A DNA stretch of 64,000 nt from assembly GCF_030408835.1 (NCBI RefSeq), contig NZ_CP047357.1:2108001-2172000 (forward strand), written 5' to 3'. The notes below the pieces were generated by a model that was given only the letters and a program-made list of their open reading frames with translations, ran no database searches and was not told where the DNA came from. Within the stretch, counting starts at the first letter, position 1. Each line of letters opens with the position of its first letter. The position numbers and the translations under genes are program-made. The DNA comes from Corynebacterium freneyi (GTDB lineage Bacteria; Actinomycetota; Actinomycetes; Mycobacteriales; Mycobacteriaceae). This document shows positions 4,355-21,033 of the stretch, in pieces.

Positions 4355-5746
4355 ATGCGACTCCTTTCGCCCCGAAAATGTCCCGAGTCGACCATCATCG
4401 CCCTGTTCGCCCTGTTCGCGGCGCTGTCCGCGTTGGCTCCCATGCTGGTTCCACCGCTGGCTCCGGCCGGTTTCGCGGCCACCGGTTCCCCCGAGGTCCC
4501 GTCGTTCGCCGAGCGCGCCGAACGCCTCGGGGTTCCCGGTGGCGCGGTCGCGTACCTCGACGACGGGGCAGTCACCCGCACCGAGGTTTTCGGCGCCGAC
4601 GGCGAGGGCCACCCCGTCGACGCGGCGACGCCGATGCTCTGGGGCTCGGTGTCTAAACCCGTGGCGGCCGCCGTCGTGAAGCACCTGGCCGACGAGGGCA
4701 CGCTCGACCCGGCTGCTTCGGCGGATTCGTACGTGCCCGACGCGCCGAATGTACCGGTCAGCGCGCTGCTCGACCACACATCCGGCCTGGGGTTCGGGGC
4801 GGGTCACCTCGACGTCGACCGTCCCGACGCAACCGCAATGGACGTCGTCGGCGGCATGTCCGGCGAGACGGGTGAATCGGGCACGGTCGGCGAGCACGGT
4901 TATTCCAGCCTCGGTTACCTGCACCTGCAGGCCGTCATCGAGGCAGCGACCGGCGGGGCCTACGCGGACGCGGTCCGCGCGACGCCGGGGCTGAGCCACG
5001 TGGGCGCCTCGGCCGCGGATTGTGCCGACGTCCCCCGCGGCCACCGCCTGGCCGGCCCGTTCGCCTGGGCGATGACCACCGGTTACGACGGCGCCGGCGC
5101 CGCCTACGGCTATTCCTGCGGGAGCATCGATGATTTGGCCGGTTTCGCCGTCTCCCAGCTCGGCACCGCCGCCGATGTCGCCGATTCGCTTGCCGACGCC
5201 GCCCCGACCGGCTCCCCGAAACAGTTTTACGGGCCGGGCTGGCGCGTGACGAACGAGGACGACGGCCGGGCCACCGTGTGGCACACCGGCACGGTCCCCG
5301 GGTACTTTTCCGCCGTGTACCACGACGCGGAATCGGGTGACGGCGCGGTGGTCCTGCTCAACGCGTCGGGGTTCCTGCACGAGGAATCGCTCGCTGCGTT
5401 GACCCGCTCCGCATTCGACGAGGCCACGGGGCGGACGGTCACTCCCGTCGAACCGGGCGGCATGGGCGTCATCGTTCCCGCGGTCCTGCTCGGCGTCGCG
5501 GCGCTGGTGCTGGTGCTCGGCTGGGTGGGGCGCCGGCGCATGCGGCCGGTCGCGTGGATTCTGCTCACGGTGGTCGTGGTCGCCGCGGCGCTCATCGCCG
5601 CTCCCCTGCTGATGGCAGTGCCCCTCCGGTACTTCTGGCTCTGGGAGCCCGGCGTCGTCGTGGCCGCCGCAGCGGTGCCCGTCGCGATGCTCCTCGCGGC
5701 GGCGATGGCCACGGCGAGCAGTGGGCGGGACCGCGGCCGCAGTTAG
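4355..5746 (+). CDS. Serine hydrolase, beta-lactamase/penicillin-binding class C fold, membrane-anchored
   Basis: A 463-residue secreted or membrane protein. A hydrophobic N-terminal segment (about residues 13-40) precedes a beta-lactamase-like domain with the SxxK motif SVSK near residues 98-101, a YSSLGY tyrosine motif in place of the usual YxN, and a late HTGTVPGY segment. Three C-terminal hydrophobic helices (about 370-455) anchor it. The family includes peptidases, esterases and true beta-lactamases; the substrate cannot be read here. The start is supported by TATAAA seven bases upstream (leaderless). It lies directly downstream of IS copy A debris and 10 bases before arfB. Confidence 0.8.
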   Translation: MRLLSPRKCPESTIIALFALFAALSALAPMLVPPLAPAGFAATGSPEVPSFAERAERLGVPGGAVAYLDDGAVTRTEVFGADGEGHPVDAATPMLWGSVSKPVAAAVVKHLADEGTLDPAASADSYVPDAPNVPVSALLDHTSGLGFGAGHLDVDRPDATAMDVVGGMSGETGESGTVGEHGYSSLGYLHLQAVIEAATGGAYADAVRATPGLSHVGASAADCADVPRGHRLAGPFAWAMTTGYDGAGAAYGYSCGSIDDLAGFAVSQLGTAADVADSLADAAPTGSPKQFYGPGWRVTNEDDGRATVWHTGTVPGYFSAVYHDAESGDGAVVLLNASGFLHEESLAALTRSAFDEATGRTVTPVEPGGMGVIVPAVLLGVAALVLVLGWVGRRRMRPVAWILLTVVVVAAALIAAPLLMAVPLRYFWLWEPGVVVAAAAVPVAMLLAAAMATASSGRDRGRS

Positions 5747-5756
5747 GGTGGTCGGC

Positions 5757-6200
5757 ATGAACGACCTGACCATCGCGCCCGGACCGGGGATCCCCGATGG
5801 TCTCGTCATCCCCGCCGCGGATCTCACCGAGCGGTTCGTGAAGTCGTCGGGGCCGGGCGACCAGGGTGTCAACACGACGGACAGCAAGGTTCAGCTGTCC
5901 GTCGACGTCGCCGCGTGCGCGTCGCTTTCCGACGCCCAGCGCCGGCGCGTCCTCCGGAATCTCGAAAGCCGACTGGACGGCACCGTGCTCACCGTCGTCG
6001 CGTCGACGCAGCGGTCGCAGGTGCGCAATCGGGCGGAAGCACGCGAGCGGATGGCCGCGCTGTTGCGGGAAGCACTGGCCCCGCCGTCTCCTCCGCGACG
6101 GAAAACGAAGCCGACGCGCGGCTCCGTTCGGCGCCGGCTCGCCGCGAAGAAGCGACGGTCGGAGCTCAAGTCGACGAGGCGGCGACCCGACGTTTCCTAG
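5757..6200 (+). CDS. arfB: ArfB/YaeJ-like peptidyl-tRNA hydrolase with GDQ in place of GGQ
   Basis: A 147-residue protein of the codon-independent ribosome-rescue family: a class I release-factor catalytic domain plus a basic C-terminal tail (KPTRGSVRRRLAAKKRR) that in ArfB enters the empty mRNA channel. The motif expected to be GGQ reads SSGPGDQGVNTT (codons GGC GAC CAG), so the second glycine is aspartate. In release factors this glycine is needed for peptidyl-tRNA hydrolysis, so activity is doubtful unless the family tolerates it. TAGGGT lies seven bases before the ATG, suggesting a leaderless transcript. A truncated paralogue with intact GGQ is at 15827-16096. Confidence 0.85.
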   Translation: MNDLTIAPGPGIPDGLVIPAADLTERFVKSSGPGDQGVNTTDSKVQLSVDVAACASLSDAQRRRVLRNLESRLDGTVLTVVASTQRSQVRNRAEARERMAALLREALAPPSPPRRKTKPTRGSVRRRLAAKKRRSELKSTRRRPDVS

Positions 6201-6235
6201 GACGCACCACCGAAGATTTTCATACAATTAGCGCC

Positions 6236-7604: not shown

Positions 7605-7762
7605 GCTCCACCTGACCCAAGGAGTACCTGACGCTCGCCAACGACGGCATGGTGGAGATGTCCCCCACCGGCGCCGACGTCCCGCTTCTGCACTTCAGCA
7701 CAAACTTCGAGCTGCTCGGGGCCAAGGACATCGCCCGCCGGTTGGAGATGTTGGCCCAGCCT
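7605..7762 (+). pseudogene. Partial duplicate of the following SUKH-like gene
   Basis: About 155 bases closely match 7879-8037 inside the next gene (both encode SPTG.(D/E)VPLLHFSTNFELLG). The copy lacks a start region and breaks off after the RRLEMLA segment. It is a truncated tandem duplicate, as is common in immunity-gene arrays that gain or lose units by recombination. Confidence 0.8.
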
Positions 7763-7834
7763 CCGATGCCGGGACATCCTGCCCCCATCTTGCTAGATTC
7801 TGGGTCAAGACCACTTGAACGAAGGAACGGTGCC

Positions 7835-8491
7835 ATGACCACCTCGGCGGAATTGCGCGAGATCTCTGCCGCACATGGGCTCACCTGGCCCGAGGAGTAC
7901 TTGACGCTCGCCGACGACGGCATGGTGGACATGTCCCCCACCGGCGACGAAGTCCCGCTGCTGCACTTCAGCACGAACTTCGAGCTGCTCGGGGCCAAGG
8001 ACATCGCCCGCCGGCTGGAGATGTTGGCGGAGCCGGACGATTTCCGGAACATCGATCCCGCCGAGGGCCTGTTGCCCTTCGGGATGGAGCCCGGCGGCAA
8101 CCTCTATTGCTTCCGTACCGGGGCCGCCGGCGCGGGTCCGGTCCCCGTGGTTCTGCTGCAGAACGATGAGCAGGAGGATGAGCGTCTCGCGCCGGATCTC
8201 GCCGGGTTCATTTTCGCGGAGATGGTCGTCGCTTCCGCCGAGTTCTACGACGACGATTACCTGGGTGAGGGCGAGCCCCGTCGTAATGCGGAAGCCTGGC
8301 TGCGGTCGCACGAGCCCTACCTGGGGCAGGAGCAGGCCGCGGCGCTCCGCGAACTCTTCGCGCGTCCGCTGATCGTGCGTGACGACGACTCGATGGGGTT
8401 CCTCGAATTCTCGGAGGTGGATGAGCTGGTGGACCCGGTTCTGCGGTATCCGGAGCGCCACGAGCCGATTCAGCTCTGGGAGCGCGGGTAG
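7835..8491 (+). CDS. SUKH/SMI1-like protein, probable immunity-type
   Basis: A 218-residue acidic protein. It begins TSAELREISAAHGLTWPEEY and continues PLLHFSTNFELLGAKDIARR, then GGNLYCFRTGAAGAGPVPVV, the strand pattern of SMI1/KNR4-like proteins, followed by a helical C-terminal part (about 125-218). ATG 7835 follows GGAACGG. Its own 5' part is duplicated immediately upstream. The exact family is less sure than for the neighbour at 7154; no toxin partner is visible. Confidence 0.6.
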   Translation: MTTSAELREISAAHGLTWPEEYLTLADDGMVDMSPTGDEVPLLHFSTNFELLGAKDIARRLEMLAEPDDFRNIDPAEGLLPFGMEPGGNLYCFRTGAAGAGPVPVVLLQNDEQEDERLAPDLAGFIFAEMVVASAEFYDDDYLGEGEPRRNAEAWLRSHEPYLGQEQAAALRELFARPLIVRDDDSMGFLEFSEVDELVDPVLRYPERHEPIQLWERG

Positions 8492-10933: not shown

Positions 10934-10957
10934 TCAGACGTTGAACTTGAACTCCAC
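10934..10957 (-). repeat. Displaced ychF 3'-end copy (a), left boundary of island
   Basis: On the minus strand it encodes VEFKFNV followed by TGA, like the end of ychF at 19791-19814, but without any ychF sequence before it. It is the outermost of six such 24-base segments. The 295 bases between the glucosidase and the next gene otherwise hold nothing I recognise. Confidence 0.75.
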
Positions 10958-11151
10958 AGAGTGTCGGCGCAGTTTAACGCGTGCGAGATTCATTCTTGGA
11001 CCCAGCCCAGTCGCTGGCGTTAACCTTGCACACAACTACGGCGATGGTCCTGGACGGCCTTGCTGACTGAGCACCCGGCACCTCCATCACAGGCGTTCGT
11101 GCTCCCCACATCCTTCGCTCAAGCGGACTGCTATTCCGTAAACCGATGTTG

Positions 11152-11877
11152 TCACCCCTCCAGGACGGTAGCCTTATCAACCCAGCGAGCCAATAGACTG
11201 AAAGCCGCGAGCTGCTCCAACGCGACTTGCTCCTCACCACCGTCGTGTGGAACATGCATCCCGGGATTGCGGATAGCCGCGTACAAGCCCTCTGCAAAGG
11301 CGCGGGCACCCCGATGCAGGTTCTCAAACGTCTTACTGCCATCATTTTCCATAAGCCGAAGGCGCGGCACATTACGCTTCGGATCGTGGAGTGAAAACGC
11401 CTCGTTGAAAAGTGCTGTTTCAGATACGTCTAGGCGGTTCAGTTTCGCTTGGGTCTCTGCATTGACGCGGATGGCAGCCTGCATCACTGCTTGATGGTAG
11501 TGCCCGTGATTCCAGTAACCCTTGCCATTTTCCCACGCCCACGGATGCAGACTGGCTGCGTCTAAGTCTGGCGTGTTCTCTCCGAGCTTTTCAGCGAGTT
11601 CAGACCGACGTTCAAGCGCTGTCTTGGCCCGGGCCGCTTGACCCCTCAGCCAGCTATACTCCTTGTCCTGGACCGGGAGTTCTTGTCTCCACCCGGGAAG
11701 CACTCGGTCAAGAATCATTTCAACGACATGGGCGCGTGCCGCAGCCTCAGTCGGCGATCCACTCATAACGGTTCCAAGGTAGGCGATGCCCGGGCCCATG
11801 TCGGGGACTACCTTCGCTGTGACTTGCAGGAACGCGTCTATCTCATTGATCGCCCACTCGGGGTCCAGCTCGGCCAT
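11152..11877 (-). CDS. TIGR02391 (Hypoth_Ymh) domain protein
   Basis: A 241-residue cytosolic protein. The C-terminal half carries the TIGR02391 pattern: LHPWAW, GHYHQAVMQAAIRVN, LFNEAFSL, and the closing FAEGLYAAIRNPGMH. The N-terminal half is helical and unassigned. This domain is common in phage, plasmid and island genes and next to restriction or abortive-infection systems; its biochemical role is not established. ATG 11877 has CATAAT six bases upstream (leaderless). It is the first cargo gene inside the island, running toward ychF-end copy a. Confidence 0.7.
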   Translation of the reverse strand: MAELDPEWAINEIDAFLQVTAKVVPDMGPGIAYLGTVMSGSPTEAAARAHVVEMILDRVLPGWRQELPVQDKEYSWLRGQAARAKTALERRSELAEKLGENTPDLDAASLHPWAWENGKGYWNHGHYHQAVMQAAIRVNAETQAKLNRLDVSETALFNEAFSLHDPKRNVPRLRLMENDGSKTFENLHRGARAFAEGLYAAIRNPGMHVPHDGGEEQVALEQLAAFSLLARWVDKATVLEG

Positions 11878-11990
11878 GCCGCCATTATGACGTATGGGGC
11901 TGACATGGCCGGAGAGAACTGGTCTGATACCCCCACCAGAAACACCCCGCATTGTTGCAGGCGCGCTGACGCGCGCCCACAATGGAAACC

Positions 11991-12341
11991 ATGAGCGATC
12001 CCAACTTCACGATCCGCCAGATCACCTTCGACTGCCACGATCCCTCAAAGCTCGCCAAGTTTTGGTCCGCCGCAACCGGCTGCGAAATCGCCGCGGATTA
12101 CGGCGATTTCGTGATGGTTGATTCCACCCCGGCGCTGGGATTTCAGCGCGTTGAGGAACCGACACCTGGGAAAAACCGCATGCACGTCGACGTTGGCGGG
12201 GCGGAGCGCGAAACCTTAGTAGAGCGTCTCAAAGGCTTGGGCGCTGCCGAACTAGACACCCACGAAGCACCGGGATTGGTGTGGACCATCATGCAGGACC
12301 CAGAGGGCAACGAGTTCTGTGTGGGCAGCCCCAAGGCCTAG
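11991..12341 (+). CDS. VOC (glyoxalase/bleomycin-resistance fold) protein
   Basis: A 116-residue single-domain VOC protein: ITFDCHDPSKLAKFW at the N-terminus, NRMHVDVGG in the middle, and QDPEGNEFCVG at the end, the standard beta-alpha-beta-beta-beta module with metal-ligand positions H/E. The family includes glyoxalases, dioxygenases and drug-binding proteins; specificity is unknown. CACAAT seven bases before ATG 11991 favours this start over the in-frame ATG at 11982. Its stop codon directly abuts ychF-end copy b. Confidence 0.8.
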   Translation: MSDPNFTIRQITFDCHDPSKLAKFWSAATGCEIAADYGDFVMVDSTPALGFQRVEEPTPGKNRMHVDVGGAERETLVERLKGLGAAELDTHEAPGLVWTIMQDPEGNEFCVGSPKA

Positions 12342-12365
12342 CTACACATTGAACCTAAATTCAAC
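12342..12365 (-). repeat. Displaced ychF 3'-end copy (b)
   Basis: Encodes VEFRFNV-stop on the minus strand with different synonymous codons from the other copies. It forms the C-terminus of the HEPN reading frame at this site, so that gene acquired a ychF-type tail. Confidence 0.7.
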
Positions 12366-12971
12366 CATGTACTCATCGAATTTTTCAATCAGTCGCCGAA
12401 CAAAATCAGCCCAATTACGGACTAGACCAAGGTTAAGCGCATCGGGCGTTGAACCTCGATGCACAATTTCACCTCGTATTATGACCAGCTCGGAAACCTG
12501 TTTCCGCACCGCCGCGTTGGTTTTCTTCTGCCATTTGATTTCCCGCAGCGGGCAGAAACCGAGGATACTTTTGTACAGGCTTTCGACACCGCCAACGCTA
12601 GCTGTGTTGAATCCGTAACGGCCGTCCGAATCTCCTTCGATTCGCAATCGAACAAGTTCAAGTACAGCCGATCGCCACGAGTCGCCCACGAACACCCACG
12701 GATCACTACTTTGCTCAGCCACCCACGACCGTCACTTTTCCGGCAGCTCATCGGCTTTCTTATTCGCCAAAAGCCATTCAACCGTCTCGATCAGTGATTC
12801 TTCGACATAGACCTCCCACGCCGTATAGCAGAGGGATGTACCCGCGCGCAGCAACGGCCCGTAACCTGGCCCCGCGGGCTTTCCCGGCTTAGGGTCCTTC
12901 TGTGCGGGATGGTGGTCAAGAAGGGAATTGACATCCTCTAAGAGTTCTTGGGCAGCCTCTAACGCAGTCAT
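12342..12971 (-). pseudogene. HEPN-domain protein (RiboL-PSP-HEPN type) interrupted by an in-frame TGA
   Basis: Two consecutive reading frames, 12971-12732 (79 codons) and 12722-12342 (126 codons), are in the same phase and separated only by one TGA and three codons. Together they give about 209 residues, a plausible length for a RiboL-PSP-HEPN protein: YTAWEVYVEESL in the first part and the HEPN RxxxxH motif IRGEIVHRG in the second. HEPN proteins are often RNases in TA or defence systems. The last residues, VEFRFNV, are the ychF tail. Two separately translated polypeptides (GTG at 12722) remain possible. Confidence 0.6.
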
Positions 12972-13009
12972 ATCCCTGACTTCCTTTACTTCTTGTTTCC
13001 AGAGGTAGT

Positions 13010-13027
13010 ATTAAATTTGAACTCCAC
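13010..13027 (-). repeat. Degenerate ychF 3'-end copy (c)
   Basis: The minus strand encodes VEFKFN, then diverges before the Val-stop. The sequence GTGGAGTTCAAATTTAA is shared with the other copies apart from two third-position changes. It lies just upstream of the HEPN gene and separates it from the mercury module. Confidence 0.6.
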
Positions 13028-13085
13028 GGTACGTAGTCGCAAAGTTACTCCCTCTCGTTAACACCATCAAAAGGAGTGTTATCCA

Positions 13086-13334
13086 ATGAAAGCGTTCGGC
13101 TTCTTAAGCTTCAGGCATTACGCCTTCGGCAGCTAGCGCGGGCCATCTGCGGAAAAGATCGCCAAGACTCATCTGGAGATCACCCAGGCTGCGGACGAAA
13201 TCGGCGTGAACAACGCGTCCTTCCGAGTCCACCACTTCGCGCTGCAGGCCTCCGCCCCGATGCCGCTGCTGTGTGCTGTCGCGGCCACCACCAAAAATAT
13301 CGAGGTGGGCACCGGCGGCATCGACATGCGCTAG
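13086..13334 (+). pseudogene. Remnant of a luciferase-like (LLM) flavin monooxygenase
   Basis: Starts with a good ribosome site (AAAAGGAG) and MKAFGFLSFRHYAFG, then hits a stop. A shifted frame resumes with EITQAADEIGVNNASFRVHH, PMPLLCAVAATTKNIEVGTG and GIDMR before another stop. These are the N-terminal segments of LLM-class flavin-dependent oxidoreductases. An internal piece and the whole C-terminal two thirds are missing. Confidence 0.7.
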
Positions 13335-13377
13335 CGCATATCGGGGTTGTAGCGTTTGAGTCATTGACTCCCGTCGT

Positions 13378-13767
13378 CTACAAGTACCTACACACTTGAT
13401 CGGTGCTGCACGTTTCAGGGTCCGGGTGCGCGGCGTCCTGTCTGAGGTCTGCGATAGTGTCGCGCAGCACGGAGAGCTGCGCGATCTGCTGCTCGATCTC
13501 AGCGAGGCGCACGTCAAGCAGGTCGCGCACGTGCTCGCAGGGCACATGGCCGCCGTCGCGGATGTCGAGGATCTGGTGGATCTGGGCGAGGGTGAGGCCC
13601 GCGGCCTGGCCGCGGTGGACGAAGTCGATCCGAGCGACCGTCTCGGGCGCGTAGTCGCGGTATCCGGACGGCGTGCGCTCGGGCGGGGGCAGAAGGCCCT
13701 GTTCCTCGTAGAAGCGAAGGGTCTTCGCGGTAGTGCCCGCCCTCTCGGCGAGTTCTCCGATCCGCAT
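13378..13767 (-). CDS. merR: MerR mercury-responsive regulator
   Basis: A 129-residue MerR protein: winged helix-turn-helix (RIGELAERAGTTAKTLRFYE), coiled-coil dimer helix, and three cysteines at about 77, 120 and 126, close to the three Hg(II)-binding cysteines of classical MerR. It is divergent from merA across a 98-bp region holding a MerR-type operator. It probably represses the merA promoter without Hg(II) and activates it by DNA distortion with Hg(II). Metal specificity is inferred from the cysteine pattern and from merA. Confidence 0.85.
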   Translation of the reverse strand: MRIGELAERAGTTAKTLRFYEEQGLLPPPERTPSGYRDYAPETVARIDFVHRGQAAGLTLAQIHQILDIRDGGHVPCEHVRDLLDVRLAEIEQQIAQLSVLRDTIADLRQDAAHPDPETCSTDQVCRYL

Positions 13768-13791
13768 TGCTGTCTCCCTCCGTGGCCGCGC

Positions 13792-13822
13792 TTGACCTTC
13801 CCCTGCACTGGAAGGTCCAGTA
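13792..13822 (+). promoter_or_regulatory. MerR-type promoter/operator of merA
   Basis: A -35 TTGACC at 13792 overlaps a perfect dyad GACCTTCC-N8-GGAAGGTC (13794-13817), followed by a -10 candidate CAGTAT (13818-13823). The spacing of about 20 bases is over-long, as expected for promoters activated by MerR-type twisting. Confidence 0.75.
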
Positions 13823-13865
13823 TGGCTGAGACAGAGCAGAAAGCCAAGAGTTGACAGGAGTAGCG

Positions 13866-15287
13866 ATGCCTACGAAGTACGATCTCGCCATCATCGGATC
13901 GGGAGGCGGCGCGTTCGCCGCTGCGATCCGCGCCAGCACGCTCGGGAAATCGGTGGTGATGATCGAGCGCGGGACGCTCGGCGGCACCTGCGTGAACACG
14001 GGCTGCGTCCCGTCGAAGGCGCTCATCGCCGCGGCCGGCGCGCGGCACGTCGCCGTCGACGCCGCAACCCGGTTCCCCGGGATCGCGACGACGGCGGATC
14101 CCGTCGACATGCCCGCGCTGATCGCTGGGAAGCAAGCGTTAGTGGAGTCGCTGCGCGGCGAGAAGTACGCCGACGTCGCCGACTCCTACGGCTGGCAGGT
14201 CCTCCGCGGCGACGCCTCGTTCGTGGGCACCCCTGATGCGCCGGTTCTCGATGTTGCCGGAGCCGACGGAAGCGTCGAGACCATCGAGGCCCACCACTAC
14301 CTGGTCGCGACTGGTTCTCGCCCGTGGGCACCGCCGATCGACGGCCTGGAGGAGACCGGATACCTGACCTCGACCACGGCGATGGAGCTGACGGAGGTCC
14401 CCGAGTCGCTGCTGGTGCTCGGCGGCGGCTACGTCGCCCTGGAGCAGACGCAGCTGTTCGCCCGCCTCGGCTCGCAGGTCACGCTGCTCGTGCGGTCCCG
14501 GCTCGCCTCGAAGGAGGAGCCGGAGGTGTCGAAGGCGCTCCAGGAGGTGTTCGCCGACGAGGGCATCCGCGTCGTCAGCCGCGCAGTGCCCACCCGGGTC
14601 TCCCGCGGCACGGGAGGCGAGGCCGTCGTGACCGCCGCCTTGTCCGGCGGCTCGCAGGAGTTCCGCGCCGACCAGGTCCTGGTCGCCCTCGGACGCCGTC
14701 CCGTCACCGATGGCCTGAACCTCGATGCGGTCGGGGTGAATACCGGAGACTCCGGCGAGGTGGTCGTCTCCGACCGGCTGCAGTCCTCGAACCCGCGGGT
14801 CTGGGCCGCGGGCGACGTGACCGGGCACCCCGAGTTCGTCTACGTCGCCGCCGACCACGGCACCCTCGTCGCCGAGAACGCGTTCGCCGACGCCGACCGG
14901 TCCGTCGACTACGCCCGCCTGCCGCGGGTGACGTTCACCGAGCCCGCGATCGGCGCGGTCGGGATGACCGAGAAGGACGTCCTCGCCGCGGGGATCCGCT
15001 GCGACTGCCGCGTCCTGCCCCTGCACCACGTGCCCCGCGCCTTGGTGAACCGCGACACCCGCGGGTTCATCAAGATCGTCGTGAACGCCGAGACGAAAGA
15101 GATCCTCGGCCTGACCGCCGTCGCCAAGGACGCCGGGGAGCTCGCCGCCGCAGGCGTCCACGTGCTCGGCAGGACCGTCGCCGAGGTCGCCAACGCCTGG
15201 GCCCCCTACCTGACCATGGCCGAGGGCATCCGGATCGCTGCGAAGGCCTTCACCACCGACCCGTCGCTGCTGTCGTGCTGCGCATGA
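13866..15287 (+). CDS. merA: Mercuric reductase MerA (no N-terminal HMA domain)
   Basis: Reduces Hg(II) to Hg(0) with NADPH in the cytoplasm. A 473-residue flavoprotein disulfide reductase with FAD motif IIGSGGGAFAAAI, redox pair C42/C47 in GGTCVNTGCVPSKA, NADPH-binding LVLGGGYVALE, second FAD motif VWAAGDVTG, and the diagnostic C-terminal vicinal cysteines (SLLSCCA) that hand mercury to the active site. The N-terminal heavy-metal domain found in many MerA proteins is absent. ATG 13866 follows ACAGGAG. It overlaps the next gene by 4 bases (ATGA). Confidence 0.95.
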   Translation: MPTKYDLAIIGSGGGAFAAAIRASTLGKSVVMIERGTLGGTCVNTGCVPSKALIAAAGARHVAVDAATRFPGIATTADPVDMPALIAGKQALVESLRGEKYADVADSYGWQVLRGDASFVGTPDAPVLDVAGADGSVETIEAHHYLVATGSRPWAPPIDGLEETGYLTSTTAMELTEVPESLLVLGGGYVALEQTQLFARLGSQVTLLVRSRLASKEEPEVSKALQEVFADEGIRVVSRAVPTRVSRGTGGEAVVTAALSGGSQEFRADQVLVALGRRPVTDGLNLDAVGVNTGDSGEVVVSDRLQSSNPRVWAAGDVTGHPEFVYVAADHGTLVAENAFADADRSVDYARLPRVTFTEPAIGAVGMTEKDVLAAGIRCDCRVLPLHHVPRALVNRDTRGFIKIVVNAETKEILGLTAVAKDAGELAAAGVHVLGRTVAEVANAWAPYLTMAEGIRIAAKAFTTDPSLLSCCA

Positions 15288-15634
15288 ACGGCAACGCAGG
15301 CAATCGGGGAGATCTCATCCTGAAGCAGACGATGAGCGCCGATCAGGACCGCGACGAATGGCGCGCCGGTCCCGTCGTCGCTGCAGTGACCGGGCTGCTC
15401 TTGCTGGCATGCTGCGCGCTTCCGTCGCTGCTCTGCTGCGGCCTGCCGTTCATCGCGGCGGGCGGAGCACTCGCAGGCGTCGGTGGGCTCCTCGGTAATC
15501 CCTGGATCATCGGTGCCGGGACCGCCGTCGTGATGGCCGTCATGGCGGGGATGCTCGTCAGGCTACGGCGGCGGCACCGGCGCCGCAGGTCCGGCTGCTG
15601 CGAAAATCCTTCGACCGCTGATCGGAACCGGTAG
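15284..15634 (+). CDS. Small cysteine-pair membrane protein, probable mercuric ion transporter (MerT-like)
   Basis: A 116-residue protein with two hydrophobic helices (about residues 33-75 and 80-98). The first contains two vicinal cysteine pairs, LLLLACCALPSLLCCGLP, the kind of motif by which MerT/MerC-type carriers pass Hg(II) inward; a third CC lies near the C-terminus (SGCCENP). Its start codon overlaps the merA stop, so it is translationally coupled to the reductase. The family assignment rests on the cysteine pattern and the operon rather than on overall similarity. Confidence 0.65.
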   Translation: MNGNAGNRGDLILKQTMSADQDRDEWRAGPVVAAVTGLLLLACCALPSLLCCGLPFIAAGGALAGVGGLLGNPWIIGAGTAVVMAVMAGMLVRLRRRHRRRRSGCCENPSTADRNR

Positions 15635-15826
15635 TTCGAGCGGATCCAGCGATCACTGCCACCTGCGGAGGCCGCTGAAATCGAAGCCCGACGGGAGAAG
15701 GAGGAGCAAAAAGCGTTCGAATCAACCGGTGACGAGGATAATACTGAGGCTGGATCCCGGCCGTCGCGACGCGGTCTCCGCTTCCGCCGAGACGAGAAAG
15801 GGTTGTGGGCACCTAGGCTGGGCGGC

Positions 15827-16096
15827 ATGAACGACATGACCATAGCGCCCGGCCCGGGGATCCCCGACGGTGCGGTCATCGCCGCCGATCTCGCGGAGCG
15901 TTTCGCGAAATCGTCGACTCCGGGCGGCCAGGGCGTCAACACGACGGACGGCAAAGTCCAGCTTTCCATCGATGTCGCCGAATGCGCATCGCTTACCGAC
16001 GCCCAGCGTCACCGTGTCTCGCGCAACCTCGAGCACCGCCTAGACGGCTCCGTCTTTACCGTGACTGCGTCGACTCAGCGGTCTGTGTTTCGCTAG
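15827..16096 (+). pseudogene. Truncated ArfB-like paralogue with intact GGQ
   Basis: Encodes 89 residues closely similar to the first 88 of the ArfB-like protein at 5757, including a normal SSTPGGQGVNTTD catalytic loop. It stops right after STQRSV, losing the basic C-terminal tail that binds the ribosome channel. Upstream, TAGGCT precedes ATG 15827 by ten bases, as in the full-length gene, so it may be transcribed. It lies inside the island behind the mercury operon, probably a fragment acquired from a related strain. Confidence 0.75.
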
Positions 16097-16405
16097 TGGT
16101 CCTCTCGCTTGCACCTGCGACACAGCCTCGTGCCCCCGGGCCGTAGCGTTCGGGGGAGCACAATAGCCCCAGTCCTCATCACGTCCCGGGATCAAAGAGT
16201 TCATCGCAGAGGTTAAGCACTACACGTTGAACTTGAACTCCACGACGTTCCGAAGCTGATTAACGTCCTTTCGGCGCCACAGCTCCCGAGAACCCCGATA
16301 CTTCCGTTTTGGTCGATGCCGTCAAGGACGCCCACACCCGCGCACTTGCCACAGGCGTCGACATCGTGCCTCCGCTAACGACCGTGGGCTGAGACCAAGG
16401 TGCAA
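16097..16405. other. Intergenic stretch with ychF-end copy and a possible gene tail
   Basis: Holds ychF-end copy d (16220-16243) and, at about 16287-16392 (+), about 35 open codons (ENPDTSVLVDAVKDAH, ending PPLTTVG and TGA) with no start codon, perhaps the 3' end of a lost gene. Nothing else is recognised. Confidence 0.4.
16220..16243 (-). repeat. Displaced ychF 3'-end copy (d)
   Basis: Identical over all 24 bases to copy e at 18577-18600; encodes VEFKFNV-TAG on the minus strand. It separates the mercury/ArfB-fragment module from the SUKH module. Confidence 0.8.
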
Positions 16406-16912
16406 TCATTCAAAATAGTTGAAGGGAAACCTCTCACGCAGTTGCGGATGGATGCTATTCAGAAGGTCCGAAACTTCCTGCTCGTATTCATCGATCTCCT
16501 GCCCCTCGTCAAGCTTCTCCTCCAGCTCCGACAACAGGAACGCCATCCTGACAAAACCAGTGAAGTCGATCTTCAGATCGAGGAAGCTCTCTGGCCCTCC
16601 GTACTCCCCCTGGTCGTGGTCGAAAAAGAACACTGTCTTGGTCCGTGCACTCAAGAACCACTCATCGCCCTGCCCCGACTGCCCGATAAGCCACAGATCT
16701 TCGGGCAAACCTTCGCCACGTGCTCGCCGATTCCACTCGAGCACCTTCTGATAGCCATACAGAACAATGTCCGGCGTGATACTTACCCCGTCATAACGAT
16801 GAATGAACTCGGTGTACGTTGCATCGATGTCAGGGATCTTGGCTTTGTTTTTGATGGCGGGATCAAGCTGCTCAAGAGAACTGAAAAGCTCGTTCGGATC
16901 AATCAACCTCAT
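16406..16912 (-). CDS. SUKH (SMI1/KNR4)-type protein, immunity-like
   Basis: A 168-residue acidic protein with the SUKH pattern: FIHRYDGVSITP, LPEDLWLIGQSGQGDEWFLS and VFFFDHDQGEYGG, ending in a helical tail. SUKH proteins commonly neutralise nuclease or deaminase toxins, but no toxin gene is present in this module. ISL3 copy B sits about 120 bases upstream of its start and may have replaced its promoter or its partner gene. Confidence 0.75.
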   Translation of the reverse strand: MRLIDPNELFSSLEQLDPAIKNKAKIPDIDATYTEFIHRYDGVSITPDIVLYGYQKVLEWNRRARGEGLPEDLWLIGQSGQGDEWFLSARTKTVFFFDHDQGEYGGPESFLDLKIDFTGFVRMAFLLSELEEKLDEGQEIDEYEQEVSDLLNSIHPQLRERFPFNYFE

Positions 16913-17030
16913 GATTTTCCCCTACTCATCCGTGACCGGAGACTGGTCACCGAAAACCAGCTCGGCGGGCTGAACCCCAGTGAGTTCGTGGTTTCAAAGA
17001 TGGACGGCATCGTCGCCCGACAGCATAACA

Positions 17031-18489
17031 GGCTCATCCGGATCTGGAGTGCGTAATTAGCGGGAAGTGATATGTCGGGGTGGCACAACATGTAGGGGCC
17101 CTGGCCGGTACAAGATGAGAGTTACCACACAACCATCTGACCGAACCAGGACCCTACGATGCAGCCTACGTTCAACCTCGTCGCCGACACCATTTGCCGC
17201 ACCGCGGAGCTGGGATTAACGATCACCGATGCCGCGGATGCCGGCGAGTTCACGGTCATCAGTGCTCGTCCCATCGACTCCTGCGACAAGTGCCCGGGCT
17301 GCGGACACACAGGCCGGCTGCGTGATCACGTCGTGCGCCGGCTGACCGATCTTCCCGTCGTCGGCTTCCCCACCAGGTTGCAGGTACGCGTGCCGCGGTT
17401 CCTGTGCCTGAATCAGTCCTGTGCCCAGCGGATCTACCAGGGCGAACTGGCCTGCGCCGAACGCGGGCGCACCGTCACTCGCCGGGTGACCCGCTGGATT
17501 CTGCAACGGTTGGCGATCGACAAAATGAGTATCTCCGCCACCGCCAAAGCCCTGGGCTTGGGCTGGGACCTGGTCAACGACCTCGCCCTGGATGCCTGCC
17601 GGCACCTGGTCTATGACGACCCCGGCCACCTTGCCGGGGTACGCGTGCTGGGCGTGGACGAGCACGTGTGGAAGCACACCCACCGGGCCGGTGAGCCGGA
17701 CTCGTTCGTCACCGTGCTCGTCGACATCACCCCCGTCATCGACGGCGCCGGACCGGCCCGGTTGCTGGACATGGTCCCGGGTCGTAGCGCCGCGGTACTG
17801 AGCGATTGGCTCGGCCAGCGTGGGCAGGGCTTTCGCGACCGGGTCGAGGTTGTCACGATGGATGGGTTTGCCGGCTACGCCACCGCCACCAAACAGGCCC
17901 TGCCGCGGGCGCAGGCGGTGATGGATCCCTTTCACGTGGTGCACCTGGCCGCCGACAAGTTGACCGTGTGCCGGCAGCGCCTGCAGCGGATGACCACCGG
18001 GCGGCGGGGCAAGAAAAACGATCCGTTGTATAAGAACCGGAAAACCCTGTTGACCAGGATTGACTTCCTCACTGATCGACAGCATCGGCGACTCGAGCAA
18101 CTGTGGGCCACCGACGAAGACTACGTGGCTTTGGAGGTGACGTGGTCGGTGTATCAGCAGATCATCGCCGCCTATCAGTACCCGAAGAAAGCCGAGGGCA
18201 AGAAGCTGATGCAGAAGGTGATCAGCACGCTGCGTTCATCGACGATGCCGAAGGGGTTAGAGGAGATTAAGCAGCTGGGAAACACGCTGTACCGGCGCCA
18301 GAAGGACGTGCTGGCGTATTTCGATATCCGGCGCGTCCAACGGGCCCGTCGAGGCGATCAACGGGCGCCTGGAGCATCTGCGCGGCATCGCTCTGGGGTT
18401 CAAGAACCTCGGGCACTACATCTTGCGATCCTTGATCCACTCCGGACAGCTGCACACCAAGATCAACGCACTCTAAATCCTGAAGAGCC
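17031..18489 (+). mobile_element. ISL3-family insertion sequence, copy B
   Basis: Runs from GGCTCATCCGGATCTGGAGT at 17031 to the other inverted repeat ending GAAGAGCC at 18489. It is flanked by a perfect 8-bp target duplication, gcataaca (17023-17030 and 18490-18497), the size expected for this family. It is 1459 bp long and nearly identical to copy C. Its transposase is frameshifted by one inserted base. Confidence 0.95.
17159..18476 (+). pseudogene. ISL3-family transposase, copy B, frameshifted near the C-terminus
   Basis: Identical to the intact copy C transposase apart from one Ala/Thr change, up to DVLAYFDI. One extra C at 18328-18329 then shifts the frame, so the catalytic-glutamate region (NGPVEAINGRLEHLRG) is read out of frame and translation runs on to about 18673 instead of stopping at 18476. 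The N-terminal zinc ribbon (CDKCPGCGHTG, FLCLNQSC) and DDE segments GVDEHVWKH and VVTMDGFAGYA are intact. Probably inactive in cis but able to be mobilised by copy C. Confidence 0.9.
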
Positions 18490-18498
18490 GCATAACAA

Positions 18499-18565
18499 GG
18501 GCGGCCCCGGCGAACTCCGGGGCCGCCCTCAAGCGGCCGTTCAGCCGATCAGCCAGAGGCTGAAC
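18499..18565. terminator. Two adjacent hairpins, probable terminator region
   Basis: GGGCGGCCCCGG / CCGGGGCCGCCC (12-bp perfect stem, six-base loop, 18499-18528) is followed by GTTCAGCC / GGCTGAAC (18539-18565). They lie downstream of the minus-strand higB-higA-GNAT operon, beyond ychF-end copy e, and directly beside the IS copy B target duplication. Confidence 0.5.
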
Positions 18566-18576
18566 GACGCACTCGG

Positions 18577-18600
18577 CTACACGTTGAACTTGAACTCCAC
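18577..18600 (-). repeat. Displaced ychF 3'-end copy (e)
   Basis: Identical to copy d; encodes VEFKFNV-TAG on the minus strand. It is the copy nearest to the genuine ychF end and bounds the higBA-GNAT module on the left. Confidence 0.8.
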
Positions 18601-18662
18601 CGAATTCCGGCAGATACCAACCTCGGGGTGGAACGTGCGCAACATTCGTGCCCGAAAGCCCC

Positions 18663-19184
18663 TCAAAACCTAGATGATGCAGAGATCGTCAGGGCGTGCC
18701 TGCTGCTCGCGAGGCAGGCAACGACTTCCCCATGATTAAACAGGGGGGTGCGTTCACCCCAGAGCGCGGTCTCCTCCAGCGACAGAAAACCCCATCGCTC
18801 ATAGAAGCGACGAGTGCGCGCATATCCGGGATCTGGGTGCGAGGCTCCGAGAGTCTTCACCTGCAACAGCCGCACCTCACGGCGAACCGCTTCGTCTTCG
18901 ACGGCCCTGAGCATTGCCGTGCCGACGCCGGTCCCGTGCACTGACCGGTCGACGACGGTGAGGTGCACTTCAGCGACATGCGGAAAGTGGCGATCGATCA
19001 GCGTGACACCGACGACCGCTCCCTCGCTGTTACGGACCGTCCATGTCTCCTTGGAGCGAGCTGCTTCGAAGTACTCCTCATTGGATTGCGGCTGCGCGAA
19101 CCATTCGGGGACCGTGGCGAGCAACCTCGCGACATCCCCAGGCACCTGCCGGTCGAGCCCGGCAACCCATGCAGTGCTGCTCAC
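18663..19184 (-). CDS. GNAT-family N-acetyltransferase in the higBA operon
   Basis: A 173-residue acetyltransferase with the GNAT core: VGVTLIDRHFPHVAEVHLTV, the acetyl-CoA loop VDRSVHGTGVGTAML, and the late ARTRRFYERWGF motif. Its ATG (19184) overlaps the higA stop by four bases, so the three genes form one translationally coupled operon. The acceptor is unknown. It could be a passenger resistance or modification enzyme, or a third component of the toxin-antitoxin unit; tRNA-acetylating GNAT toxins normally pair with ribbon-helix-helix antitoxins, not HigA. Confidence 0.8.
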   Translation of the reverse strand: MSSTAWVAGLDRQVPGDVARLLATVPEWFAQPQSNEEYFEAARSKETWTVRNSEGAVVGVTLIDRHFPHVAEVHLTVVDRSVHGTGVGTAMLRAVEDEAVRREVRLLQVKTLGASHPDPGYARTRRFYERWGFLSLEETALWGERTPLFNHGEVVACLASSRHALTISASSRF

Positions 19185-19501
19185 GCGACCGCGAGAGGCG
19201 TGATAGCAGCGACCTTGTCGCGCAGCACTCGGCGCTCCAAGCGCAGCTCGTAGTTCGACTGCAAGTTCATCCAGAACTCCTCGGACGTCCCGAAGTATCG
19301 CGCCAGACGGATCGCCGTATCAGCGGTGATCCCCCGCTTGCCGTGCACGATCTCATTGATCCGGCGCGGCGGCACACCGATGGACACGGCGAGCCTGTTC
19401 TGCGTGATCCCGAAGCCCTCGATGAAATCCTCCATCAGGATCTCTCCCGGGTGAATCGGCTCGATCAGGTCGCTCTCAGTGGTAGTCGACGAGTTCGACA
19501 T
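19181..19501 (-). CDS. higA: HigA antitoxin
   Basis: A 106-residue XRE-type helix-turn-helix protein of the HigA/VapI group: HPGEILMEDFIEGFGITQNR, LAVSIGVPPRRINEIVHGKR, GITADTAIRLARYFGTSEEF, WMNLQSNYELR. It binds and neutralises HigB and represses its own operon. The start at ATG 19501 overlaps the end of higB by 26 bases, the usual toxin-first order of higBA. Confidence 0.9.
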   Translation of the reverse strand: MSNSSTTTESDLIEPIHPGEILMEDFIEGFGITQNRLAVSIGVPPRRINEIVHGKRGITADTAIRLARYFGTSEEFWMNLQSNYELRLERRVLRDKVAAITPLAVA

Positions 19502-19757
19502 TGTCCGCACCTCCCTCTCTCCAGACGAAGCAGAGACGCCATTGCGCGTTGACGCGGATGCTGTGCTGCCCACGTCGGTCGCCGACCAGACGCTCTAGGC
19601 GATTGCCAGGCGGAACCCGGAGGTCCTCGAGATCCTTCGCCGCATGGATCAGTTCGAGCTTCCGCAAGGCCGCCCGCTGCACCATCCGGTCGACTCGCTT
19701 GACATACTGCTCATGCCAGATGCGCTCGGTGTCCTTGCTGCCGAACGATCTGATCAC
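19476..19757 (-). CDS. higB: HigB toxin (RelE/ParE superfamily)
   Basis: A 93-residue HigB-type mRNA interferase: MIRSFGSKDTERIW at the N-terminus, HAAKDLEDLRVPPGNRLERL in the middle, and the conserved C-terminal GQHSIRVNAQWRLCFVW. GTG start at 19757. It lies 33 bases from the end of ychF and transcribes away from it, so its promoter must lie in the short gap or within the ychF 3' end. Confidence 0.9.
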   Translation of the reverse strand: MIRSFGSKDTERIWHEQYVKRVDRMVQRAALRKLELIHAAKDLEDLRVPPGNRLERLVGDRRGQHSIRVNAQWRLCFVWREGGADNVELVDYH

Positions 19758-19790
19758 GTCACCAGTGTATAACGGACACCGTCATTAACG

Positions 19791-20870
<1,080 letters not shown>

Positions 20871-21033
20871 GCGCCCCATCCTACGGGCCCGGCTTGGCTT
20901 TACGACGATGCGGTCTCCCCTGCTCCCGTCGAGGGACCCGGGATCGGGTGGGCGGCCCGTCGTCAAGCACTGCAACCGGGATGTCGGCGACGCCCGGAAG
21001 AGGGGGAAACCACCCACGACGCGACCACCCTAA

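Follow-up and report, generated by a model that had tools for sequence, protein, structure and literature searches.

The gene for the YchF GTPase (ychF) of Corynebacterium freneyi lies on the minus strand of the stretch of DNA analysed here, termed the window (64,000 bp, G000:C1:2108001-2172000, from a genome of 2.88 Mb that is assembled in one contig and is 99.97% complete). Directly beyond the 3' end of this gene are five modules, which together span 8.9 kb. In the reading favoured here, to which a probability of about 90% is given, these modules were stacked at the ychF end by repeated site-specific insertions, with a large serine integrase acting in trans. The modules, numbered 1 to 5 from ychF outward, are delimited by the tail of ychF itself and by five displaced copies of that tail, all on the minus strand. 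The recombination itself is deduced from comparing the sequences of this array and of others like it.

The putative docking site is the 3' end of ychF (19791..20873, minus strand; PF06071 138 bits, MMR_HSR1 79 bits). The last codons of the gene specify VEFRFNV-stop, and this tail recurs five times downstream, on the ychF strand each time; the Val codons with which the copies start lie at 19814 (ychF itself), 18600, 16243, 13027, 12365 and 10957. A preliminary description of this DNA, made from its letters alone, had reported the six copies and their common strand, and this is borne out both by the coordinates and by a search with the 24-mer found at 16243 and 18600, two copies that were described as identical and do have the same sequence. 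Allowing up to 3 mismatches, the 24-mer matched 3 copies in the window, compared with 0 in 100 shuffles; the remaining 3 copies exceed 3 mismatches to it. The reading VEF(K/R)FNV-stop, originally given for every copy, holds except at 13027, where the copy is worn (VEFKFNT, stop codon gone). The copy at 12365 doubles as the C-terminus of an open reading frame (ORF) with a HEPN domain (...YMVEFRFNV-stop). The flanks of the copies had all been taken to be unrelated. On the ychF side this does not stand, since comparison of many arrays finds that the displaced copies have a common loose left arm, ~CNMCGACAYNYC, directly before the GT of the Val codon, often with GGTTA or a similar sequence ~20 bp upstream.

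The present ychF tail (19791..19814, minus strand) differs in its codons from the body of the gene, as had been noticed. GTA is used for 0 of 31 Val and TTT for 0 of 14 Phe in the body, while the tail holds both; ychF as a whole has a G+C content at third codon positions (GC3) of 0.93. The most distal copy (10934..10957, minus strand) uses only sense codons with G or C in the third position, as most of ychF does. A near relative, G239, has a ychF that is 99% identical to that of the window, and the flanks of the two arrays also correspond (1121 bp align at 96.4% identity at the ychF end, and 2431 bp, host side included, at 94.3% towards the glucosidase gene). Between these common flanks, however, G239 carries 23 kb of other DNA with at least two modules. 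Thus, a fixed block present in all related strains, the opposing possibility considered in the preliminary description, is not what is found. At the ychF end, 56 of the 60 bases leading up to the GT are equal, compared with 17 of the 60 that follow it, and the G239 tail differs. At the distal end, 52 of 60 bases are equal outward from the GT, an agreement to which the tail common to both contributes part, and 16 of 40 inward. Random 60-mers have 15.5 equal bases on average, with a maximum of 29 in 5000. Because identity to G239 switches at its GT, the most distal copy is most likely the ancestral ychF tail, pushed out by 8.9 kb, with host DNA beyond it. The present tail was most likely given by the proximal module, given the linkage described below, the absence of its GTA and TTT codons from the gene body and the other tail in G239. 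Three further near relatives (G001, G056 and G039) are uninformative for the flank comparison, the glucosidase side not being found within 59 kb.

Within the genus, a degenerate tail pattern was matched in 68 of 242 genomes and a backward-pattern control in 0. When ychF is on the same contig, the matches are either the ychF tail itself or lie no more than ~72 kb downstream, except in G036. Among 40 relatives ranked by ychF similarity (one, at a contig end, was passed over, and two of the 40 were not parsed), further sites with at most 1 mismatch are present within 19 kb in 10, or in 11 if a doubtful copy in L050 is included. The arrays were compared in 49 fetched loci (1.27 Mb), which were partly selected for several sites and give no array frequency; most begin at ychF, a few begin further downstream, and one (G036x) is the non-ychF site of G036. 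In these loci the exact degenerate tail occurs 139 times in the ychF orientation and 0 times in the opposite one, and with two mismatches allowed the counts are 173 and 2. Together with the control, this orientation bias speaks against the idea, raised at the outset, that the copies come from a wider repeat family. Variation in the tail is roughly tenfold higher at third codon positions (0.364) than at first and second ones (0.034 and 0.039), a ratio to be read with the fact that the search pattern favours such variation.

The point of exchange is indicated by a linkage test, in which pairs of sites were compared by the identity of their upstream and downstream modules. Among 372 pairs that agree in the upstream but not in the downstream module, the fraction identical at position -10 is 0.90, compared with 0.33 for 11976 unrelated pairs; among 356 pairs that agree in the downstream module, the fraction identical at position +24 is 0.93, compared with 0.37 for unrelated ones. 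Bases through -1 track the upstream module; +8, +17 and clearly the bases beyond +20 track the downstream module. Positions 0 and +1 are G and T and are almost invariant. Large serine integrases exchange at a shared dinucleotide. Because of this property and the switch of linkage at this point, the crossover presumably takes place at the single GT in the Val codon of VEFKFNV, which in the present ychF tail is 19813-19814 (minus strand). The linkage table led to the rejection of an initial alternative, a crossover at the second GT (in AACGT), which lies further to the right.

These data also bear on RecA-type exchange or gene conversion between the short repeats, which might spread tails and shuffle modules with no dedicated recombinase. 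Tail versions within one module family do vary more than the body, which conversion could explain, and exchange by way of common bodies is conceivable, as families F1 and F2 vary in length. Nevertheless, this explanation is highly improbable. The common stretch is only ~20 bp, often with several third-position differences; the switches of identity fall at the GT instead of being scattered at random; and the strict copies lie in one orientation (139 vs 0). In addition, as detailed below, a serine integrase is found ~25 bp behind ychF in 8 of its 10 intact copies, and in other orders the site is the exact point at which dissimilar flanks meet at ychF.

The serine integrase at ychF

Modules whose tail reads ...FNVT-stop open with a large serine integrase gene or its remains. 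The protein, P0001, has 503 amino acids and matches PF00239 (107 bits) and PF07508 (52 bits), the domain order of large serine integrases; an intact copy of its gene lies at L034:17477-18985. It is matched at E <= 1e-60, whole or as fragments, in 32 of the 242 genus genomes. The contig that carries the match also carries ychF in 27 of the 32, and 24 of these 27 have the integrase no more than 10 kb downstream of ychF, a proximity for which the chance expectation is <1% (10 kb in ~2.5 Mb); 23 of the 24 have it on the ychF strand. Ten full-length copies contain no stops and are at least 98% identical; eight of these begin ~25 bp behind ychF, and the other two are at another site (G051) and in an array piece on a short contig (G234). 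Deleted or decayed copies are present in, for example, G060, G122, G054 and G076; ~14 N-terminal integrase residues are left in F2 in six arrays, and F3 retains a longer N-terminal piece. Thus, the recombinase tied to a VEFKFNV-coding site, which the preliminary description had proposed to look for, is a serine integrase that sits at ychF in related genomes and is missing from the window genome. This distribution indirectly supports its suggestion that the modules are moved in trans.

All YchF tails that were read are open to a stop a few codons past the site, and the C-termini are varied. In 8 of 8 genomes with a P0001-type integrase directly at ychF, YchF ends FRFNVT. An RTG/KTG-type tail (e.g. 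RTGLTSGSKK) is present in 8 of 8 genomes whose integrase, 51-54% identical, is within 10 kb of ychF (G121, G094, G120, G020, G015, G239, G193 and G182), and in G003, with an integrase that is 61% identical, the tail reads FNTTSANKK. These pairings support the view that each element brings its own tail, the YchF tail type going with the integrase type. The earlier proposal of integration at the ychF end with a tail supplied by the element is likewise strengthened by this variation and by the linkage. In three genomes with diverged integrases (G065, G052 and G165; 41-48% identical) YchF ends VCDFKIGG, and no tie to ychF is shown.

A second tail type (VEFRTGLTSGSKK and variants) occurs at L134:204, L135:631 (minus), L136:854 (minus), L147:377 and L151:804. 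Four of the five loci combine it with an integrase that is 52-54% identical to P0001; in the fifth (G078), a P0001-type gene, broken in two, lies further on. To judge from these pairings, the second type is a sister system that uses the same address and provides another C-terminus.

Short cassettes, short direct repeats and the general lack of a recombinase are also features of pdif modules and integrons, and the array might therefore be ascribed to cassettes of Xer or integron type, with a tyrosine recombinase as the mover, either XerCD (the enzyme of pdif modules) or IntI. Proteins matching PF00589, the tyrosine recombinase family, occur in 16 of 16 genomes tested, as expected for Xer. However, in these 16 genomes none of them is found on the ychF contig at a distance of 90 kb or less from the gene, and the recombinase that is present at the sites is of the serine type, which leaves this explanation with almost no probability. 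Tyrosine recombinases were thus rejected as the movers, and the discovery of the serine integrase ended consideration of a likeness to integron core sites.

Module families, cargo and spread

Between consecutive sites, the 49 loci contain 124 modules, of which alignment places 95 in 19 families of at least two members and leaves 29 single. The families recur in differing orders among arrays, an array can be up to eight modules long, and the smallest modules are 0.5 kb. Family F0, to which the mercury module of the window (module 3) belongs, is present in 20 arrays including the window, and the 19 others are 96.6-98.8% identical to the window copy. F0 is also found, at ~91% identity, within a longer module of G020 and G059. 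Its neighbours change between arrays, and 21 other genus genomes carry it at 91-99% identity. Module 5 (F11) is 98.0% identical across all 1408 bp in G020. The set of 124 contains no full-length relative for modules 1, 2 and 4; parts of module 1 align at 70-76% within it.

F0 is the test case for another possibility, that the modules are independent elements, each with its own integrase that was later lost from every passenger, and that mobilisation in trans never occurs. Loss does occur, as the integrase pieces in several modules (F2, F3) indicate. Yet F0 is conserved end to end over 3.2 kb in 20 arrays and has no integrase match (E <= 1e-60), which argues that F0 spread in trans, unless it always travelled with a neighbour. 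In addition, no annotated protein of the window modules is an integrase remnant, although short remnants were not searched for. Independent elements are thus an unlikely explanation, and insertion with the integrase supplied in trans is preferred.

The order of modules suggests where they enter. From ychF outward, the arrays read F0-F9-F1-F3-F2 in G076, F0-F9-F1-F2 in G127, F0-F1-F3-F2 in G054, F1-F3-F2 in G134 and F0-F18-F6-F1-F3-F2-F4-F17 in G126. A common outer block with a different ychF side, as seen in these five, fits addition beside ychF, and from such orders we infer that new modules enter next to ychF. Modules may also leave. The 2339-bp F3 module of G076 is missing from G127, where the flanks are 98.5% (9.1 kb) and 99.2% (8.5 kb) identical to those of G076, and the G127 junction consists of the left half of one G076 site and the right half of the other. 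The first of the two alignments overruns the site by ~80 bp because F3 and F2 start alike.

Cargo annotation covers part of the module ORFs. F1 carries a cadmium-type P-type ATPase and the Cd/Pb sensor CmtR, and F2 a copper-type P-type ATPase and a multicopper-oxidase-like protein. In F3 there is an Erm-family 23S rRNA methyltransferase (298 bits to the broad Erm model of NCBIfam, cut-off 212), and an Erm copy with 282 of 298 residues identical is present in the integrase-bearing F5 module of G069, which contains an IS1249 transposase as well; the Erm coordinates are L057:9298-10191 and L034:3237-4130. The cargo of the system thus includes a drug-resistance gene, and C. jeikeium is one of the species concerned. 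F8 has a DUF488 gene matching the candidate-defence model PDC-M45B (7.7e-25), and antitoxins of the HigA type are also among the cargo. No relaxase or conjugation genes were found among the F5-module proteins scanned, which represent part of the ORFs, and there was no phage match among the scanned proteins, some only, of one integrase module.

The system extends beyond Corynebacterium. A scan of genomes of named species gave 29 integrase loci, 13 of which match P0001 over its length at at least 98%; 9 of these 13 are directly at ychF. Five loci outside the genus have the integrase at the 3' end of ychF: two in Actinotignum (Actinotignum schaalii and Actinotignum timonense), two in Varibaculum (both Varibaculum cambriense) and one in Arcanobacterium (Arcanobacterium urinimassiliense). 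These five loci have the donated tail in common, whereas the DNA before the GT is different. In Gleimia europaea, Helcobacillus massiliensis and Pseudoglutamicibacter cumminsii, modules that retain remnants of the integrase are located at ychF or close to it. Module DNA is also shared: Gleimia europaea (L171) carries F0 at 98.5% identity over 3216 bp, Actinotignum schaalii matches 11.6 kb of the F5 module at 98.6%, and Pseudoglutamicibacter has the 10.4-kb F3-F2 block of C. jeikeium Cj37130 (G134) at 96.9%. Actinotignum belongs to the Actinomycetales, Pseudoglutamicibacter and Helcobacillus to the Micrococcales, and Corynebacterium to the Mycobacteriales. Outside Corynebacterium the spread of the integrase is patchy, because 394 genomes sampled evenly across the class gave a single match at E <= 1e-90, in G121, which belongs to the genus of the window.

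A plasmid origin was considered and rejected: a plasmid collection held no relative of the integrase at E <= 1e-30, and the 17 plasmids that match the mercury module contain at most 70% of it and never its ends. A phage origin was likewise rejected, since a scan of IMG/VR confirmed no relative and phage records are only distant. These records include 105 that match the integrase at E <= 1e-20, and the 20 matches listed, from Microbacterium, Streptomyces and Mycobacterium phages, are 29-43% identical over at least 70% of the protein.

Proposed mechanism and known systems

In the proposed mechanism, a circular module would carry an attachment site (attP) composed of a left arm, ~CNMCGACAYNYC, and a right arm, GT|NGAGTTCAAGTTCAACGT..., that encodes EFKFNV-stop. 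The integrase would recombine this attP with the ychF end at the common GT. The left half-site would stay in the chromosome, so that the YchF frame would be kept and would receive the tail of the module, while the old ychF tail and everything beyond it would be pushed outward. Because the ychF end would keep its own left half, it could serve repeatedly, with new modules entering beside ychF and older ones lying further out. The junctions between modules, having the left arm of one and the right arm of another, are attP-like in composition, and because of this composition a module could exit precisely, as suggested by G127 and G076. An intact integrase gene would make a module autonomous, and the other modules would be passengers. 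The window genome would contain only passengers, and its array, built by an enzyme that has since been lost or by a visiting one, would be static until an integrase enters again. From these sequences we infer that this enzyme performs the insertion, that passengers move in trans and that the internal junctions are active.

Several observations weigh against this reading. The window genome has neither a PF07508 protein nor an integrase match (E <= 1e-60); consequently, in the absence of the former, its array cannot be tied to a resident enzyme. In 3 of the 27 genomes with ychF on the same contig the integrase is more than 10 kb from ychF (31 kb in G184, 49 kb in G065 and 1.08 Mb in G036), in G107 an integrase that is 46% identical is near ychF but on the opposite strand, and in G036 and C. 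striatum ATCC 6940 (L164) the element occupies a non-ychF site. Some pairs of arrays (G122, G069) have the ychF side in common and a different outer part. At the site itself, position +2 is little linked (0.54 vs 0.44), and the F0 tail (20 bp; window 16224-16243) exists in five versions over 20 copies whose bodies are ~98% identical. This is more than strict linkage to the downstream module would give, and later exchange among copies could explain it.

The non-ychF site is common to the arrays of C. striatum ATCC 6940 (L164:9955), C. sp. HMSC078H07 (L181:9956) and G036 (G036:C1:1515942). The YchF of G036 and of C. striatum (G051) ends VCDFKIGG, not VVEFKFNV; because of this ending, the usual site is gone in these genomes and a substitute may be used.

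Taken as a whole, the system would probably be a serine-integrase-run, integron-like capture platform docked at the end of a housekeeping gene, one that loads, stacks, drops and exchanges integrase-free cassettes across actinobacterial genera and orders, with each insertion rewriting the C-terminus of YchF. If this is true, a single chromosomal address gathers genes for mercury, cadmium/lead and copper resistance, toxin-antitoxin genes and Erm genes, which are exchanged across three orders, and corynebacteria and neighbouring actinobacteria have a counterpart of the staphylococcal cassette chromosome (SCC) and of integrons. Several of the named species are known from people. Serine integrases are normally one-way, and how such an enzyme builds arrays of many cassettes at one site becomes a testable question. 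The system is easily overlooked, as most modules have no recombinase and the repeat resembles part of a gene; no earlier description was found in the literature searched, which included that on SCC and left most subscription papers outside the search.

Among known systems, SCC is similar in several respects. Stacked and recombinase-less SCC elements exist. A report on the enterococcal cassette chromosome (ECC) describes a large serine recombinase, insertion in the 3' region of rlmH, direct-repeat att sites and variable cargo (PMC6222049). The ychF system has in common with SCC/ECC a serine recombinase, docking in the end of a conserved protein gene, recombinase-free passengers and variable cargo, and its sites are direct repeats that keep the reading frame of the target gene. 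However, the target is ychF and not rlmH (orfX), there is one integrase gene, which scores far below the NCBIfam cut-offs for CcrB (73.9 bits, cut-off 900), CcrC (30.4, cut-off 900) and CcrA (27.1, cut-off 700), arrays contain up to eight modules that can be as small as 0.5 kb, and the C-terminal sequence of YchF changes with the element. Thus, the ychF-end system works like SCC but is not SCC, because both the target gene and the recombinase families tested differ.

In integrons, small cassettes line up in a single orientation at a fixed docking site; most lack a recombinase, and they are shared and reshuffled between species. The ychF arrays also consist of small, mostly recombinase-free modules in one orientation at a fixed site. 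They differ in having no tyrosine recombinase at ychF (no PF00589 within 90 kb in the 16 genomes), in docking at the coding end of a host gene and in a crossover that would occur at a common GT. The pdif modules, which depend on XerCD, are small and contain toxin-antitoxin and resistance genes between short repeats, as do the ychF modules; the latter have a serine integrase at their sites, and their repeats are in one orientation and are tied to one gene. The large serine integrases of actinobacterial phages belong to the same enzyme family as P0001 (29-43% identical among the 20 listed). Pneumococcal prophages integrate near ychF, according to two reports (PMC6375853, PMC10383233), which place them upstream of the gene (dnaN-ychF or intergenic before ychF) and not at its coding end.

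The modules of the window

All five modules are assigned to the minus strand. Their contents are broadly as first described, with three qualifications: the SUKH assignment is under its cut-off, the HigB-like ORF has no library match, and only one of two HEPN ORFs is above the cut-off. Module 1 (F19; 18601..19814; 1214 bp) contains the HigB-like ORF, which is named by position and has no match in NCBIfam or PADLOC, a HigA antitoxin (TIGR02607, 105.8 bits) and a GNAT acetyltransferase (Pfam matches). Against the defence library, HigA has weak matches only, to PDC-M69A (3.7e-4) and RmrA (0.0068). Module 2 (F20; 16244..18600; 2357 bp; GT at 18599-18600) contains the weakly SUKH-like ORF (21 bits, cut-off 25.4) and an ISL3-family transposase (17159-18673), the last part of which, from its translation, is apparently frame-shifted.

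Module 3 (F0; 13028..16243; 3216 bp; GT at 16242-16243) encodes a MerR-family regulator, mercury(II) reductase (MerA; TIGR02053, 554 bits), an ORF without a family and a weakly RF-1-like ORF. Module 4 (F21; 12366..13027; 662 bp) has the degenerate site (13008-13027, VEFKFNT) and a HEPN (RiboL-PSP) domain spread over two adjacent ORFs in different frames (12342-12971), which match the late and early parts of one Pfam model, PF18735, with 30.2 bits (cut-off 28.4) in one and 25.1 bits, under the cut-off, in the other. The split HEPN may be either two genes or one broken gene. One of these ORFs (12342-12722) obtains its final codons and stop from the tail that starts the next module, as ychF does. 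Module 5 (F11; 10958..12365; 1408 bp; GT at 12364-12365) contains a Hypoth_ymh/TIGR02391 ORF (PF09509, 82 bits), whose matches in the defence library are also weak (Aga_HEPN, 1.6e-5; PD-Lambda-3_B, 5e-5), and a VOC (Glyoxalase_6) ORF on the opposite strand.

Some ORF types recur. An ORF with a GGQ motif is present in several module families (window 15803-16096, the weak RF-1 match; L057:14638-15243; L082:15048-15497; L084:1646-2095), and VOC-like and HigA-like ORFs likewise recur in several families. By way of a common G239 match, the DNA of the GGQ ORF of the window resembles positions 5736-6201 of the window, outside the island. Also outside the island, the ORF at 7649-8491 has an internal duplication, in which PLLHFSTNFELLGAKDIARRLEML occurs twice.

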